From: Pseudomonadota bacterium
GTDB taxonomy: Bacteria > Pseudomonadota > Gammaproteobacteria > Burkholderiales > Rhodocyclaceae
NCBI GenBank assembly: GCA_018241665.1
Contig: JAFEDK010000021.1
Location: 1 to 64,000, forward strand
Direction: 5' to 3'
DNA: 64,000 nucleotides
Position numbers and translations under genes: made by a program. The notes under the pieces were generated by a model. It was given only the letters and a program-made list of their open reading frames with translations. It was not told the DNA's origin and did no database searches. Shown here in pieces: positions 56,336 to 64,000 of this stretch. Each line of letters begins with the position of its first letter. Position 1 is the first letter of the stretch.

Positions 56336-56350
56336 CGACAAATTGTGTCG
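56336..56350. promoter_or_regulatory. Palindrome before the WYL regulator gene
   Basis: CGACAAATTGTGTCG (arms CGACA/TGTCG) lies 36 bases before the regulator start. The same element with one base changed occurs at 62508-62522. It is a likely autoregulatory operator. Confidence 0.6.
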
Positions 56351-56386
56351 TATGATGAGCGCGTTCCCAACTCGTCAGGAGCCCCC

Positions 56387-57406
56387 ATGGCCGTCGCTCA
56401 CCAATCCCGGGTAGACCGTCTGAAACTGCTGCAGAAGTGCATCCCCAGGAACCAGGCGGGGGACGACTACCCGGACGCGAGACAGTTGCTGGTCAAGCTG
56501 GCGGAGCAATACGAGTCCAGCAAAACCGACAGTGCCCGGATGCGCTCCATCCAGCGCGACCTGGATGAACTGGTGAATGACGGCTTCATCGAGATCGTCA
56601 ATCCCGGCGGAAAGCCCCAGTGCTATCGGCGGACGATCGACCTTGGCGTCACGGACCCCCGCCTGTGGGCGTACGCGCAGAAGCTGATGCGCTCCCTGAT
56701 CCGTGACGCGGTGCCGGCAAAACGCCTGGACAAAATCTGGGAGGCCCTGCGCGAGGAGGGCGAGGAATTCGGCCTGGGAGAGGACAAGCTGTGCATCCTC
56801 AGCGATACCCAGCGCCTGCTGCCCGCCGAGTTCAAGGAAGAGGTCCTGCTCGCGGCCCTCGAAGCCCTTGCGCAATCCCAGACCTTGAGCGCCACCTACC
56901 GGGACGGCGGCGGGAGTTTGACCCATCCGACCCTGCACCCGCAGGCCTTGCTGCAACGTGGCCCGCGCCTGTATCTGTTCGCGCTCAAGAATGACGAGGT
57001 CGAGCCCCTGCGCATGTATGCGCTGCACCGCTTCACCTCCGCCAAGGTCGGCACTGCGCCGGTCCGCAAGGCCGAGGGTTTCAGCCTGAAGGAGGCCGTG
57101 CGCAAGGGGCAGGCGGACTTCGCTGGCAATGGCGAGGTGGATCTGGAGCTGCGGGTGCGCGGCTATGTCACCGAACTGCTGCGCGACTGCAAGCTGGCCG
57201 AGAACCAGGTTATCGAGGATGAGCCGGATGGCAGTCCCTTCAAGGCCCGCGTGCGGGCGAAGGTGCCGGAAACCGGGCAGCTGCTACGCTGGTTGCTGGG
57301 CTGTGGCGACAACGTGGAGGTCGTGGCCCCGGCCAAGTGGCGGGAGGTCGCCATCAGCCAGATCGAGAAAATGCGCGCCATCTACCCGCCTCGTGACGGG
57401 AGTTGA
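56387..57406 (+). CDS. WYL-domain transcriptional regulator
   Basis: 339 residues: N-terminal winged helix (about 8-75; ARMRSIQRDLDELVNDGFIEIV), a WYL domain (about 160-245; LHPQALLQRGPRLYLFALKNDEVEPLRMYALHRF) and a C-terminal extension ending near residue 335. WYL proteins bind nucleotides or nucleic acids and control DNA repair, phage defence or metabolism. AGGAG upstream of the ATG at 56387. A palindrome precedes it. It is convergent with the hybrid kinase (8 bases between stops). Confidence 0.88.
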   Translation: MAVAHQSRVDRLKLLQKCIPRNQAGDDYPDARQLLVKLAEQYESSKTDSARMRSIQRDLDELVNDGFIEIVNPGGKPQCYRRTIDLGVTDPRLWAYAQKLMRSLIRDAVPAKRLDKIWEALREEGEEFGLGEDKLCILSDTQRLLPAEFKEEVLLAALEALAQSQTLSATYRDGGGSLTHPTLHPQALLQRGPRLYLFALKNDEVEPLRMYALHRFTSAKVGTAPVRKAEGFSLKEAVRKGQADFAGNGEVDLELRVRGYVTELLRDCKLAENQVIEDEPDGSPFKARVRAKVPETGQLLRWLLGCGDNVEVVAPAKWREVAISQIEKMRAIYPPRDGS

Positions 57407-57414
57407 GCCTGGGG

Positions 57415-60400
57415 CTACGCCCCCTTTGTTGTTCCGTCGAATGCCTTTTGGAGCGCCTGCTGCGCCGTTTCAAGCTGTGCAATCAAGATCTGAACCCTTG
57501 GCGTATCGCTGATCGAGCGTCGTAGCAACTCATCGAGTTCCTTGGCTGCTTCGAACACGGCAGTAAAACCAAGATTGCCAGCCCCTCCTTTTATAGGGTA
57601 TGCACGGCACGTTCTGCTGCTGAGCAATCCCCGGCCGCCAAGGCGCTCTTGATGGACGCAATATGCTTGGCGTTGCTTCCGCAGCTCAGGCGTGCCAGTT
57701 CAAGATACTTATCCTTCCTGTTGCGCAACATTCCCAAGCCCCGTGCCAGATCGATGCCGGGTGTTTCGGCGAGACGGGTCAGGATGGACTCTGGGGTGGC
57801 CGGCTGCGCTGCAGGAGGGGGCGTCGAAACGGACTCCTGCTTTGATGCAGCGTGCTCGGGAAGCCATTTCAGAAGCGTCGCGTACATCATGGCAGGCTCC
57901 ACCGGCTTGGCGATGAAGTCGTTCATGCCTGCCGCCAGACAAGCTTCCCGGTCTTCATCGAAGGCGTTGGCCGTCATGGCCAGGATCGGGATGTCCGCGC
58001 ATTGGGGCAGCGAACGGATCGCGCGGGTGGCTTCCAGGCCATCCATCTCGGGCATTTGCATGTCCATGAGAATGAGTTCGTACGAACCTGTCCTGGCCTT
58101 CTCGACTGCGACACGCCCATTCTCGGCGACGTCCACCCAGAGATGCGCGGCATGCAAGAGCTCTTGTGCCACTTCAACATTGATCAGGTTGTCTTCCGCA
58201 AGCAGAACCCGTGCGCCTTCGTGCCGCAGGCGCAACTCGCTATCAGCCGAGGAGGTCAGCGTCTCTTCAAGCGGCATCACGCCATGGCCGCGCTGCAGCC
58301 AGGCGGAGAACCAGAAGACCGAGCCCTTGCCCACGGTGCTTTCGCAGCCTGCTTCACCCCCCATCAGCTCGGCCAGGCGTTTGCTGATCGCGAGCCCGAG
58401 ACCGGTTCCCTCGTACTTGCGCGTTGCGCTGTTATCCGCCTGTTCGAAGTCGTGGAACAGGCGCCCCAAGGCGTCCGGCGCAATGCCGATACCCGTATCT
58501 TCGACCGAGAAGCGAACCTTCAGGCGGTCGGCTTCTTTGGCGAGCAAATCAGCCTTGAGGGTAATGCTCCCTTGTTCGGTGAACTTGACGGCGTTGCCCG
58601 CAAAATTGAGCAGCGCCTGGCGAATCCGCAGGACGTCGCCGCACAGCCATACGGGCACATGCTCCGTCACCATGGATAGGGTGAGTCCCTTGGCGCGAAC
58701 CGATTCGCCAATGATGGAAGCCGTATGGTCAAGCACTTGCGTCAACGCAAAGTCCGTCAGATTCAAGGACAGCTTGCCCGCCTCGATCTTGGAGAGGTCG
58801 AGGATGTCATTGATGATCGACAGCAGATGCTTGCCTGACATCTCGATCTTGGACAGCCGCTCCGCCTGCTGGGGCGTCGGACTGTCCTTGCGTAACAGAT
58901 GCACCAGGCCCGTGATGGCATTCATCGGCGTACGGATCTCGTGGCTCATGTTGGCCAGGAAAGCGCTCTTGGCAACATTGGCCGCTTCGGCTGCCTCTTG
59001 CGCCTTGAGCATTTTTAGCTCGAGTTCCTTGCGCGTGGACAGGTCGATGTGGGTCCCAACCGCGCGCAGAGGGTTGCCGTCCGGGGCCCGCGCGACCACT
59101 TTGCCGCGACTGAGGATCCATTTGTAGCGGCCATCCTTGCAGCGCATACGAAATTCCATTTCGTAACTGCTATCCGTGTGCAGCAACTCCATTGCCTTCG
59201 CGTGGACGGACTCCTTTTCCTCCGGATGCAGCAAGGCGAGCCAATTGTCGTCAAGGCTTTCACCGAGTTCGCCGGGGGCGTAGCCCAACATCGTGCTGTA
59301 GGCGGGGTTCAGGTAGTTGATATCGTCCCGGATGCTCCAATCCCACAATCCATCGCGGGTCGCCTCCAGGGAGTACTCGAGACGCTCCCGGTCGAACGCC
59401 TGCTGGGCCAGGGATTCCGAGAGCGCCTGTGTTCGCTCTTCGATCTTCGCTTCGAGTTGTTCCTGATAATCGATGAGTTGCAGCTCGGCCCGCTTTCGGC
59501 GACCGTTCTGAACCATCAAGGCAAGACTCAGCCCGGACAACACGAGAATGACGGCAAAGGCCGCGATGACGAGGCCCTTGTAGTCGACCCAGATGGAGCG
59601 GGGGCGATGGAGGAAAAGCGTGTTCTCCGGAAGCCGTGCAGGGTCGGCGCCCCAGCGCTGCACTTGCAGCCAGTCAAACACCGCCTGCGGCGGTACCTTC
59701 CTGTCGATATCGCCCGCCTCGAATTTGCCGGATCCATCAAGGAGCGCAAAGCCGAGTTCTGCAGCGCTTTGCCCGACCCTCATCGGCACGACAACGGATC
59801 CGCCCGTAAAGCCGAGCCGGACATGGGGCTCATACAGCGCCAGAACCGGCACATTGGCTCGCTTGGCAACTTCGGCACCGACTTCGGCAGCAATAAAGTT
59901 CCGCCCGCTCAAATCCCTTTGGTAGATGCCGAACAAGATCAGCGCGTCCTGCGGCAGTGAGGCAATACGCTGCAGCATTTCCTGGTGAGTCAGTCCTGCC
60001 GTGTCTTCGAGCGCCACCTGCAGGCCCTTGGCGGCGAGCGCCTCCTTGGCCTGCTTATAGAACGACGCCTGCTGCTTGTCTGCCCCGGCAACCAGAACCA
60101 CACGGCGCGTGCGGGGGAAAAGGGCTAGACCGTGGTCGATTGTTCCTGCGATGTCATACCGGTTGATGATGTTCTGCACTGGGCGAACTTGCCCACGCCA
60201 CTTGATGGTGGACATATCGACAATCGTAGCGATCACCGGCACATCGGGCGGAACCACCTCATGACCTTCTTGAGCGAGAAAATCCAGGCCCGTTTGATTG
60301 ACGGCGATTACGACACCGATGTTTCGCGTGGCCAATTTTTCTTGCAGCAGGATTGCCAGCGCTGCGCGCCGGCGGGAATCGTTGTGGCGCAGCAGGTCAA

Positions 60401-60725
60401 GGTTTTCAACGTAGATATCGTTGACGCTGATCCCTTTGTCCTTGAGCTTCGCCACGATACCTTGGGTCAACGCGTCCGGCACCGGGATACCGTATTGCGC
60501 TCCGGAGAGGATCAGAACCGCTTTTCCTTCAGTCCCCGACTTTGCCGCGGGGCTCCGCACATCCGGGGCGCCTGCCTCGGGCGCGGCCGCAATGCAAAGC
60601 AGGGATAGTGACAGCAGAAAAAAAGTAGCCGCGACCAGGCGTGCCAGACTGAGTACGCCGCGCGTGCTTCCGGACAAAGGGGTGGTTGAGACGCCCCCTG
60701 TTCCAATCGAGCCTGCGTGCATCAT
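57415..60725 (-). pseudogene. Hybrid histidine kinase with ABC-type periplasmic sensor, frameshift in Hpt domain
   Basis: Order: N-terminal membrane/signal helix (about 25-47), periplasmic ABC-substrate-binding-like sensor (about 50-350; VLILSGAQYGIPVPDALTQG), TM about 382-402, coiled coil, PAS domain (about 440-570), HisKA with His595 (ANMSHEIRTPMNAI), HATPase (EGTGLGLAISKR), receiver (ILMDMQMPEMDG) and C-terminal Hpt. The frame ends inside Hpt at AVHTL-stop (57591). The other frame continues as KGGAGNLGFTAVFEAAKELDELLRR to 57415. An extra TA (CCCTATAAAAGG) would explain the break; the phospho-accepting His is in the truncated half. Start 60725 has AGAGGGGG upstream. Confidence 0.8.
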
Positions 60726-60964
60726 TCCCCCTCTGGAATTGCCATGCCAGCAATGCGTCAATCCTATCATGAATAGAAAAATGATCAGTCCAGACCGACA
60801 AGGCGCATTCTGTCACTCTTAGTGCCAGCTGCACGAAAAAGACCGGGCTTCAGGTAATTGAAAGCAATGATAAAGAACGGTTGGCACGAGATGCTCTGGT
60901 TCCGAATAGAGGGCCGGACTCAGATGCAGCAAGACGAATCGGTCAGTTTCGTCGGGAGATAGTC

Positions 60965-61863
60965 ATGCGGAGCTGGCAGTCCCTGAAGGTTAGGCTTTCT
61001 ATTACGACCTTGGGGGTTTGTGTGGCCATGCTGTGGTCGCTCTTTTTCTATGGTTACCAGCTGGTCAAAAAGGACTCGGAGAGGCTGATTGGAGAGCAGC
61101 AATTCGCCACGGCGCAAATCGCAGCTGAGCTGATAAACGATACCGTCACCCGGCAGTTTTCGGCCCTCGAGCATGCGGCAATAGAAATCCCGCCTGAGCT
61201 GCTGATAAAACGCGATCGGCTTCAAGAGTGGTTGGAAGGGCAGCCATCCCTGCTCAGTCTTTTCAATGGCGGCGTATATGTGACCGGCAATCGCGGGGTC
61301 CCGCTCGCCGTATTTCCTTATTCCCGGAAAATGACGGAGACCAGTTACGCCGACCAGTCGAGCCTTCGCGTCCCTGCATGAGCTGCGCCGCCACATGCTT
61401 CTTGCCACAAGCTTGCTGTCGCTCCTTGCCGGTCTGCTCACCTGGGGCATTGCGGCGCAACTGCTGCGGAGAAGGCTGTTCCCCATCATCGAGGCCACCA
61501 AGCACCTGGTCAAGCTGGATGAAAAGACCAGCCGGACACTCGAGGCACTTCCCGCGGCATGTAATGACGAAATCGACGAATTGGTAAATTAATTCAACGA
61601 CTTGATCGTCGCGGCAAGGAAGCGCGAACTCCTGCTCGGCCAGAAAATGGAATCTCTGGCTGAGGCCGTGGGCCGGGCGGAGCAAATGGCTGGAGAACGT
61701 TCCACCCGCGCCAATAGACGCCGCGCACGCCCCCAAACCGATAATCTCCTCGGAAAAGGATTCCCTGCTACGCCAGCCCGATCCCGACATGAAAGCCATT
61801 CTTGGAATATTGGGAGAAATTGAACTGGCTCAAGGGGAACTGGCAAAGGTTTTGGGCATGTAG
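60965..61863 (+). pseudogene. Decayed membrane sensor protein
   Basis: The first frame gives MRSWQSLKVRLSITTLGVCV (TM), then a Cache-like extracellular region (LLSLFNGGVYVTGNRGVPLA) to a stop at 61381. A second frame (about 61375-61592) holds TM2 and a HAMP-like stretch (LRRRLFPIIEATKHLVKLDE), then an in-frame TAA at 61590 followed by FNDLIVAARKRELLLGQKME. A third frame carries ENVPPAPIDAAHAPKP to QGELAKVLGM and a stop at 61861. Two frameshifts and one nonsense codon show loss of function. GGGAG precedes the ATG. No output domain remains. Confidence 0.7.
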
Positions 61864-61974
61864 GAACGCGCGCAGGGAAGGGGGAGTGTCCCGGAAAACA
61901 GCCGTGCCTTATCGGGGCTTTGCCATCCTGAAACGGAGTGCGGAAGCGCCCCCCCAGGCTATGGAACGACAGGT

Positions 61975-62340
61975 TCAGGACGGCACATCGACGATCTCAC
62001 CAGGCTCTGTTCCCTTGAGATAGGCGCCACGCCCGTACTTGGGGACCTGCAACCAGTCGCAGGGCAGGGTGAAATTGCCGAAATGCTCGACAACGCAGCC
62101 GTCCTTCCAATAAGCCTGCCCGTCAGCAGACTCGACAACGGTGTCAAAGCCGAGCTTATCCAGTTGCTCCACCATGGTCCGGATATCGTTCGGGTGTCCC
62201 GAGCAATAGCGGGCAAGGTGTTCATCGTAGGTAATTTGCCGTGCGTAATCCTTCCGGAATTGCTCCAAGCCACCGGGGTATTTCTCAGTGATGACTTTGA
62301 TCGGTACGAAGAGATTGATAAAACCAAGTGAGATGGCCAT
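61975..62340 (-). CDS. Conserved-looking small protein of unknown function
   Basis: 121 residues, no signal peptide cleavage site, one hydrophobic start (MAISLGFINLFVPIKVI). It continues KYPGGLEQFRKDYARQITYDEHLARYCSG and has a WKDGCVVEHFGNFTLPCDWL stretch and an AYLKGTEPGEIVDVPS end. I do not recognise the family. A truncated relative (tail only) lies at 56228-56314. No clear ribosome site precedes the ATG, which leaves the start in doubt. Confidence 0.6.
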   Translation of the reverse strand: MAISLGFINLFVPIKVITEKYPGGLEQFRKDYARQITYDEHLARYCSGHPNDIRTMVEQLDKLGFDTVVESADGQAYWKDGCVVEHFGNFTLPCDWLQVPKYGRGAYLKGTEPGEIVDVPS

Positions 62341-62662: not shown

Positions 62663-63229
62663 ATGCCTGCATGCCGGACCCTCCGCACGAGTGAATCCCA
62701 CCCCATCCGTATCGATGCCGTTCAAGCCCGCCGCGATTGGGGGCTGATTGGCATGTCCTTCTGCCCCGGCAAGCAGCAGGTCGACGGACTGAGCGGGCAC
62801 TGGCAGCGGGATCTCGGTATGGATCTGGAGCGCATCCGGGCCTGGGGGGCATCGATCGTGGTGTCCCTCGTCGAGCAGCAGGAGCTTGCCGAACTGGGCG
62901 TGGAGGCGCTGCCGACCGAGGTCATGCGCCTTGGCATGATGTGGCGGCACCTGCCGATCCGCGATCGCTATCCGCCGGGCCAGACCTTTGAAAGCCGCTG
63001 GCCCGAGATCGGCGCCGAACTGGTAGCTGCTTTGCGGACGGGACAACGGATCTTCCTGCACTGCAAGGGCGGCCTGGGCCGCACGGGCACCGTCGCAGCC
63101 TGCCTGCTGATGGAGGCCGGCATGAACGCCGAAGAAGCCGTGACGCAGGTGCGTCTCGCACGCCCGAAAACTATCGAGACCACGCTGCAGGAGTGGTACG
63201 TGCATACCTACCGCCCGAGGTTTGGCTGA
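62663..63229 (+). CDS. Dual-specificity/CDKN3-type protein phosphatase
   Basis: 188 residues. The Cys-based active site is FLHCKGGLGRTGTVAACLL (HCx5R, about residues 129-147). An upstream aspartate-containing HLPIRDRYPP loop is the likely general acid. GMSFCPGKQQ near the N-terminus is typical of the CDKN3-like group found in bacteria. It would dephosphorylate Tyr/Ser/Thr or a phospholipid; targets unknown. AAGGA precedes the ATG. The next gene starts 31 bases later and encodes an FtsZ-like protein, so they are likely co-transcribed. Confidence 0.85.
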   Translation: MPACRTLRTSESHPIRIDAVQARRDWGLIGMSFCPGKQQVDGLSGHWQRDLGMDLERIRAWGASIVVSLVEQQELAELGVEALPTEVMRLGMMWRHLPIRDRYPPGQTFESRWPEIGAELVAALRTGQRIFLHCKGGLGRTGTVAACLLMEAGMNAEEAVTQVRLARPKTIETTLQEWYVHTYRPRFG

Positions 63230-63260: not shown

Positions 63261-64000
63261 ATGATCAAGATCATTGGGATTGGCAAGACTGGCGTCCGCC
63301 TGCTGGATACGCTGATTTCCCTGGGGCTGCGCGAAGCCCTGAAAGAGGAGGGCAAGTGGCGAGAGCTGCGCTTCATTGCAGTGGAGACCGACATCGGTGA
63401 GTGGGCATGCGCCAATGCCGATGCGGGGTTTTACCTTGGGGCAGCAGGAGAATGTGCCAGCCAGGCTGAGGCCATGGAGCGCATGTCGGTGCGGGCACAA
63501 CAGGCGCTCGCCCATGAACTGCGCGGCGCCTGTCTGATCCTGCTTCTGGTTGAAACTGGCGACCTGCTCGAATGCGCGGCGGCGGCGGGTATCGCCGAGC
63601 TGGCTGATCGAGCAGGTGCCATGGCGGTCTCCCTGGTGGCGCGGCCAGGCAGCGCCGCAGACGGAGCGGTTGCGAAGGCGGACGATGATCAGCTTGCGCG
63701 TATTCGTGCGGCTTCGGACGTCGTCCTGTCGTTCCATTCAGACGAGCGGGAACTGGTGGGGGATGCGTGCTTTGTGCGCCATGGCGCGGAGCCTGTTCCG
63801 GCAGGGAGGCTCATCAATTGTGCGCACATCCTGCTCAAGGCCATCACGCAGCCTTACCAGCAACTGGTGGGGTGCGACTATCAGGATGTTCGCACGGTGC
63901 TGGATACGCAGCCGATACCGGAGGATAGGGTGATGGGCTATGAGACGGCGTTCTTTCACCGGATGGTTGCATCATCGGACGCGCAGCCGGAGGTCATCGC
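63261..64000 (+). CDS. Divergent FtsZ/tubulin-like protein (partial, runs off window)
   Basis: 246 codons visible, open at the right edge. IKIIGIGKTGVRLLDTLISL parallels the FtsZ start IKVIGVGGGGGNAV. LRFIAVETD stands for FIAINTD; AHELRGACLILLLVETGD and AELADRAGAMAVSLVARP stand for the region around the GTP loop; LKAITQPYQQLVGCDYQDVR matches SDLITxPGLINVDFADVR. The GGGTGTG nucleotide signature is missing (VETGDLLECAAA instead), so GTP binding may be lost or altered. Likely a specialised paralogue rather than the division FtsZ. AGGAAAACGC precedes the ATG. Family call is by pattern, not database search. Confidence 0.7.
   Translation, partial: MIKIIGIGKTGVRLLDTLISLGLREALKEEGKWRELRFIAVETDIGEWACANADAGFYLGAAGECASQAEAMERMSVRAQQALAHELRGACLILLLVETGDLLECAAAAGIAELADRAGAMAVSLVARPGSAADGAVAKADDDQLARIRAASDVVLSFHSDERELVGDACFVRHGAEPVPAGRLINCAHILLKAITQPYQQLVGCDYQDVRTVLDTQPIPEDRVMGYETAFFHRMVASSDAQPEVI

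Follow-up and report, generated by a model that had tools for sequence, protein, structure and literature searches.

A strongly altered FtsZ paralog with a degenerate T4 loop and a retained T7 loop at variable, defence-like loci of Zoogloea

Introduction

What are the closest described counterparts of an FtsZ-like protein that has lost its T4 loop? As is well established, the GTPase site of one bacterial FtsZ subunit is completed by the T7 loop of its neighbour (also stated in PMC13423816). Accessory FtsZ-superfamily paralogs that stand alongside a normal FtsZ, as does the protein described here, are known as FtsZl1 and FtsZl2 (Makarova and Koonin 2010, PMC2875224). According to the passages of that paper drawn on here, the founding FtsZl1 protein has GGGTG(S/T)G, most FtsZl1 proteins add a coiled coil (mostly together with a helical domain), and most FtsZl1 operons include a vWA gene; FtsZl2 keeps all of the nucleotide-domain motifs and has a region of about 300 residues. 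Recent work has established that FtsZ itself contributes to the signal activating a bacterial immune protein, and the phage protein Gp0.4, which has been likened to SulA and MciZ, blocks FtsZ at its synergy-loop face (PMC13423816, in the part cited here).

Two further bodies of work concern WYL proteins. In about half of all cases, BrxR-family WYL regulators are found alongside phage defence (PMC9122601), and modules that unite WYL and rhodanese-phosphatase genes have been proposed as conflict systems (PMC9503650). In contrast to the loci reported below, the portions of these two papers used here describe no FtsZ-like component, and a search of PMC9503650 for the word FtsZ gave 0 occurrences. 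Among the matches listed from open-licence literature, as far as their excerpted text goes, we found no FtsZ paralog presented as a defence component; the nearest was PMC13423816, which concerns host FtsZ itself.

We analysed a window of 64,000 nucleotides from a Zoogloea contig (C13, 66117 bases in length). Near its end lies an FtsZ-like gene, here called A, which runs past position 64,000.

Results and Discussion

A divergent member of the FtsZ superfamily

63261..64000 in the window, continuing to contig position 64217 (stop included), + strand: FtsZ-like gene A, 318 aa
contig 64290-64934, outside the window, downstream of A: C39-like peptidase gene, 214 aa

The first-pass annotation of the window saw an FtsZ-like protein that is divergent and lacks the tubulin signature, and suggested reading on beyond 64000. 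Doing so gives the full gene of 318 codons, ending at 64217, with the C39-like peptidase gene downstream. The start is an ATG at 63261 with an AGGA-type ribosome site a few bases upstream; a promoter and terminator scan returned nothing above chance.

Judged from its sequence, A is a true member of the FtsZ superfamily. The NCBIfam ftsZ model TIGR00065 matches residues 2-301, nearly the whole protein, with E=4.8e-13, and a phmmer search against solved structures matched FtsZ chains (best E=9.3e-7). The score of 49.1 bits lies far below the 295.2 equivalog cut-off of TIGR00065, and the matches to Pfam Tubulin (E=0.099) and FtsZ_C (E=0.022) both fall below their cut-offs. A separate contig of the host encodes a normal FtsZ, with GGGTGTG; it is 26% identical to A, and it is the sole other FtsZ-type protein that A matches in its own genome. 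A is a second, strongly altered FtsZ paralog, new and so far restricted to one genus, in a defence-like setting. The earlier description as divergent and devoid of the tubulin signature is borne out by the TIGR00065 match and by the single GGGTGTG residue of seven that is kept, and the sequence blocks it named are present in A.

AlphaFold2 gave a pLDDT of 57.4 and a pTM of 0.55 from the four A sequences alone, and 79.8 and 0.82 once 17 canonical FtsZ rows were added, with an FtsZ-like order of strands and helices; as the latter alignment contains FtsZ, this model is no independent proof of the fold.

Loss of the T4 loop and retention of the T7 loop

63552..63587, + strand: degenerate T4 position, ETGDLLECAAAA, aa 98-109, from the alignment against FtsZ GMGGGTGTGAAP
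63867..63902, + strand: kept T7 / synergy loop, VGCDYQDVRTVL, aa 203-214, with D206 and D209 retained

For the comparison of motifs, four A proteins were aligned with two proteins of a second paralog (B, below) and 16 different canonical FtsZ sequences from relatives. In focal A, ETGDLLECAAAA aligns over the canonical T4 loop GMGGGTGTGAAP, and the same position reads GLDDPLECVAAA or GLDDPLECAAAA in the relatives of A, in which 0 of the 7 GGGTGTG residues are kept in each of the three. Residues G21, N25, E136, R140, N161 and D182 (host FtsZ numbering), which we take to be GTP contacts, are replaced in all A rows covering these positions; G18, G20 and G23 of T1 are kept. A is apparently unable to bind GTP. 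In the C-terminal domain 12 of 66 conserved positions remain, and there is no C-terminal tail peptide (0/11 positions in the focal protein, 1/11 in each relative).

The T7 loop is the best kept of the seven regions compared. The canonical loop VNVDFQDVRTAM is VGCDYQDVRTVL in focal A and VGFDFQDLRTxL in its relatives, and 7 of its 11 conserved positions match canonical FtsZ in focal A, versus 52 of 198 across the core (Fisher p=0.008 uncorrected, ~0.06 when corrected for the seven regions). The three relatives also score 7/11 each, the four rows being related to one another. Both aspartates, D206 and D209, are invariant in the four A proteins and throughout a 21-row alignment of these with 17 canonical FtsZ sequences, in which the T7 loop holds 4 of the 14 invariant columns. 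Thus A resembles bacterial FtsZ (TIGR00065) in its homology across nearly the whole protein and in a T7 loop with both aspartates, and differs from it in lacking the T4 GGGTGTG, most GTP contacts and the tail peptide.

A was considered as a member of the two described accessory families and rejected from each, on the traits given for them in the cited part of PMC2875224: from FtsZl1, because GGGTG(S/T)G is absent and the 318 residues end with the FtsZ-like core, and from FtsZl2, because the nucleotide motifs are lost and there is no C-terminal region of ~300 residues. A Pfam search of part of the neighbours at the A loci likewise found no vWA gene, the trait of FtsZl1 operons.

A narrow distribution, with both constraint and decay

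A was found in 4 of 23 Zoogloea genomes, several of which are incomplete: the focal genome, G010 (a Zoogloea sp. metagenome-assembled genome), and G018 and G019, which represent one species, Z. oleivorans. Other Zoogloea matches to A (1e-15 to 1e-17) fit ordinary FtsZ, and those of their loci that were inspected contain GGGTGTG; one Zoogloea genome, G008, gave no match at all. A pattern-based contig scan for relatives of A recovered three loci, all in Zoogloea (an earlier such scan had recovered none). There was no hit at E<=1e-15 among 368 other genomes of the class sample (369 in total) and none at E<=1e-18 among 397 other genomes of the phylum sample (398 in total). The family sample (296 genomes, evidently without G010 and G019) returned the window's genome, G018 and three hits near 1e-19, and these three were rejected as members because they contain GGGTGTG and are ordinary FtsZ. 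Class, phylum and family samples were drawn evenly from larger groups, with 5 to 7 candidates scored per genome, and rare members may be missed. A phage or plasmid home for A was likewise considered and rejected, no relative having been found in viral contigs (pattern-based scan), phages or plasmids.

Three copies of A are intact (focal, G018 and G019). The ratio dN/dS is 0.42 between G018 and G019 (Fisher p=0.005), 0.31 between G018 and what can be read of the G010 copy, and about 0.25 between the focal gene and G018, where dS is saturated; nonsynonymous change lies below synonymous change, and the A protein is under constraint. Decay is also evident. The G010 copy has an in-frame TAA stop, and G018 carries, ~26 kb from its intact A-B pair, a decayed second copy of A (4 stops) with a fragment of B (one stop). 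Together these show that A is dispensable.

Could A be a decaying duplicate or a hitch-hiker on an island, with no present function? The stop in G010, the decayed copies in G018 and the presence of A in 4 of 23 genomes are what such a relic would leave, and the third-position GC of A (0.69, versus about 0.85-0.94 in most of the genes predicted to its left in the window) also fits. Against this stand the three intact copies, dN/dS values of 0.25-0.42 over three comparisons (one with saturated dS) and the retention of T7 in all four A copies, and we regard the absence of function as unlikely.

The decayed A and B copies of G018 (L091:1-5900, C44 at about 34-40 kb) have as neighbours a decayed piece of WYL, an AAA+ ATPase and a DUF2779-like gene; the ATPase and the DUF2779-like gene were identified by eye, from their likeness to the locus L035. 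An intact version of this neighbourhood is found in G019 (L035).

The adjacent phosphatase

62663..63229, + strand: rhodanese/DSP-type phosphatase, 188 aa (Pfam Tc-R-P 5.6e-12, PTP-SAK 6.2e-12, CDKN3 4.8e-10)
56345..57406, + strand: WYL-domain protein; its relatives lie near A in two genomes (G010, G018) and immediately upstream of the phosphatase in three further Zoogloea genomes

The focal gene order is the phosphatase, 31 bases, A, 72 bases, the 214 aa protein, 43 bases and a gene on the opposite strand. A phosphatase gene ending 31 bases upstream of A had been noted before, correctly (its stop codon occupies 63227-63229), and the label CDKN3-type given to it is fair, as CDKN3 passes its Pfam cut-off, although Tc-R-P and PTP-SAK score better.

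The first-pass annotation went on to propose that the two genes form a phosphorylation-controlled system, and named absence of the pair from related genomes as the finding that would refute it. The phosphatase (E<=1e-5) occurs in 8 of 23 Zoogloea genomes, namely the window's own and seven that lack A, and at that threshold in 0 of the 3 other carriers of A. The pair is absent from the related genomes, several of which are incomplete, and as a system it is refuted. The membrane-remodelling role suggested for it finds no support here. Placement on one strand at a distance of 31 bases is what speaks for an FtsZ-like system under phosphatase control; with pairing at one of four A loci, and with the phosphatase occurring without A in 7 of the 22 other Zoogloea genomes, we consider such control very improbable.

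Five of the seven phosphatase loci without A were inspected. In three, the phosphatase directly follows a WYL gene that is 74-76% identical to the WYL gene at window position 56345; on the stretches around the other two no such WYL gene was found. Since the phosphatase follows WYL in 3/5 loci and its pairing with A is not conserved, WYL is a more plausible partner for it than A. The focal WYL and phosphatase genes stand 5.2 kb apart, with a histidine kinase and fragments in between, and the stretch 57591-62340 is apparently an insertion, as WYL and phosphatase adjoin in the three other Zoogloea genomes. This gene order recalls the WYL and rhodanese-phosphatase conflict systems, in which a WYL gene is combined with an R-P-type phosphatase; the ARG domain is central to those systems as set out in the cited part of PMC9503650, and the likeness here concerns the WYL and phosphatase genes alone.

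Some details of these clusters may be recorded. The stretch 57591-62340 holds a minus-strand histidine kinase/response regulator gene and sensor-like fragments. Among the three Zoogloea clusters with WYL followed by phosphatase (L083, the clearest, L084 and L085), RecD- and RecB-like genes, named by eye, face the phosphatase in L083 and L084, and diverging from WYL in L083 are the gene of an unknown 144 aa protein and the beginning of an AAA+-like gene.

Variable partners of A

L034:9379-10683 and L035:3715-4989, directly behind A in Z. oleivorans: B, a second divergent FtsZ paralog

At the focal locus A is followed by the 214 aa protein, which gave no significant Pfam, NCBIfam or PDB match. 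Its residues Q24, C31, H142 and D165 are invariant in four rows (the focal protein and three plasmid homologs), and Gln, Cys, His and Asp constitute the C39/papain-like active-site set; among its homologs, one is annotated as a C39 family peptidase, and the Pfam C39-type matches of homologs lie below cut-off, the focal protein having no such match. The gene occurs in 4 of 249 genomes of a family sample, the window's own included, and is paired with A at the focal locus only, so that as a partner it is no better conserved than the phosphatase. An empty-site comparison by means of this gene revealed no insertion boundary, as its surroundings vary across the three genomes compared.

The order in Z. 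oleivorans is A, B and a Sir2-family gene (for G018, Pfam SIR2 3.3e-19). B matches TIGR00065 with E=1.4e-9 and has about 110 extra N-terminal residues, for which the best Pfam match, cREC_REC (E=0.1), is under cut-off; the gap between A and B in G018 is 27 or 90 bases, the start of B being uncertain. Of the motifs, B retains 5 of 9 T1 positions and one T7 aspartate, the first; T4 and the second aspartate are lost. Its dN/dS between G018 and G019 is 0.27 (Fisher p=1.8e-5). Full-length B was found in G018 and G019 only among 60 relatives searched, with none in the focal genome or G010 and none in viral contigs; plasmids gave 12 weak matches (E 3e-4 to 9e-3), nine annotated as FtsZ or cell division protein and three unannotated. 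In a tree of A, B and FtsZ the branches are about 5 to 10 changes per column long, too long to place the origin of either A or B. In G010, the gene 29 bases after A is JAB-like (Prok-JAB E=0.022, under cut-off). Every adjacent enzyme, then, was found with A in one species only.

The presence of B raises the possibility that A, with B where present, builds a scaffold or polymer of its own with a role outside division, in the spirit of FtsZl1 and FtsZl2. The two altered paralogs adjoin in Z. oleivorans and their remnants are complementary, T7 in A and 5/9 of T1 in B. However, T4 is lost in both, so that neither should have a GTP switch, B is absent from the focal genome and G010, and A has no C-terminal tail peptide; we hold an independent scaffold to be quite unlikely.

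WYL genes as the recurring neighbour

The recurring neighbour of A is a WYL gene, and the adjacent enzymes vary. A WYL match lies 1.4 to 6.2 kb from A in 4/4 carrier genomes (C13:56840 in the focal genome, C402:8362 in G010, C44:16346 in G018 and C18:6484 in G019), with 3 to 5 WYL matches per genome. The chance of a WYL match that near to A is 0.002-0.007 per genome, in a test chosen after the loci had been seen and with G018 and G019 being one species. Identity to the focal WYL protein is about 62% in G010 and G018 and 27% in G019. AAA+ ATPases with one AAA domain, which match PADLOC IetA models, lie beside the WYL genes or A in G010 and G019. PADLOC 2.0.0 returned no match or E>=0.04 for A, B, the phosphatase and the C39-like protein; its matches at the A loci are to neighbours only, in the WYL, IetA, DEDDh and PDC families. 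The combination of a WYL regulator with exchangeable enzymes is shared with WYL/BrxR-regulated defence islands (PMC9122601, in the part cited here).

A possible block of FtsZ filaments

The T7 aspartates act on the GTP of a neighbouring subunit, and only host FtsZ fits as that neighbour, so that their retention suggests contact of A with host FtsZ. Since A apparently cannot hold GTP itself, keeps the T7 aspartates and has host FtsZ as its sole GTP-loaded candidate partner, we favour a role in capping or poisoning Z-filaments. We propose, tentatively and as something possible rather than probable, that A, encoded in a defence-like cassette, is an accessory FtsZ without GTP binding whose T7 face docks on host FtsZ, pausing division. 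First, A would have lost GTP binding (the T4 loop and most other GTP contacts) and the tail peptide, with the T7 loop kept. Second, the T7 face of A, once made, would dock onto the GTP-bearing face of host FtsZ. A docked A could not be extended, so that Z-filaments would be capped or poisoned and division paused; in Z. oleivorans, A may act together with B. The cassette would be a variable, defence-like one near WYL regulators, which may control it, with differing partners (C39-like peptidase, Sir2, JAB-like), and these surroundings make phage- or stress-induced growth arrest the likely setting. Several points weigh against this proposal: the T7 enrichment is modest, the C-terminal domain keeps 12/66 positions, the focal locus has no B, the WYL test was chosen after the fact, the adjacent enzymes differ between species, PADLOC has no significant match to A or B, and the gene is dispensable.

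SulA and MciZ are, to our knowledge, not homologs of FtsZ. They and Gp0.4 resemble A in the proposed mode of action, occupation of the longitudinal interface of FtsZ, which for A is a proposal; they differ in that they cover the T7 face of FtsZ, whereas A would offer a T7 face to the GTP face of FtsZ (PMC13423816, in the part cited here).

Alternatively, A might act as a decoy or guard that imitates monomeric FtsZ, so that phage division inhibitors bind it and the neighbouring enzymes (C39-like, Sir2, JAB-like) are released as effectors. There is a strong precedent in CapRel-Ebc, which senses Gp0.4 only when complexed with FtsZ, monomeric FtsZ being sufficient; the main contact of Gp0.4 with FtsZ is at the synergy loop (PMC13423816, as excerpted), part of which A keeps. 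Polymerisation of A is not expected, and the WYL, Sir2 and IetA-like neighbours would suit this role. A decoy would not need both catalytic aspartates, however, and the candidate effectors vary between species. Residues 199-206 of E. coli FtsZ presumably correspond to 195-202 of host FtsZ, where focal A matches at 196, 201 and 202 only. It is this stretch that Gp0.4 protects (PMC13423816, in the part cited here), and it sits just before the part kept by A; the other contact surfaces (262-270 and 292-303) fall in the C-terminal domain, where A is poorly conserved. On balance we judge a decoy to be rather unlikely.

More broadly, a family of FtsZ paralogs that do not bind GTP might have been recruited as swappable parts of immune cassettes, in which the face for FtsZ-FtsZ contact serves to stop host division on command or to catch phage proteins that attack FtsZ, with a signal to the neighbouring enzymes; we put this forward as doubtful but conceivable. 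If true, A, with its nucleotide loop lost, its contact loop kept and its surroundings defence-like, would make a natural mimic of FtsZ, be it for immunity or for arresting division.

Relatives of the partner genes on plasmids and in other genera

Homologs of the partner genes were seen elsewhere. On the Prevotella plasmid pE2-28 (L064:5899-7302), a homolog of the C39-like gene stands directly before a Sir2-family gene, the enzyme class that also follows A and B in Z. oleivorans. In P. aeruginosa (L063:5992-6615), a protein annotated as HcuA has the Gln-Cys-His-Asp pattern of the C39-like family. Finally, the Caballeronia plasmid pSBC2-5 (L096:4706-7390) carries a Sir2 gene that matches the one of Z. 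oleivorans at 72% DNA identity over some 315 bases. This Sir2 gene is divergent to a WYL gene and has a gene for a putative molybdenum carrier protein behind it; no FtsZ-like gene is annotated nearby.
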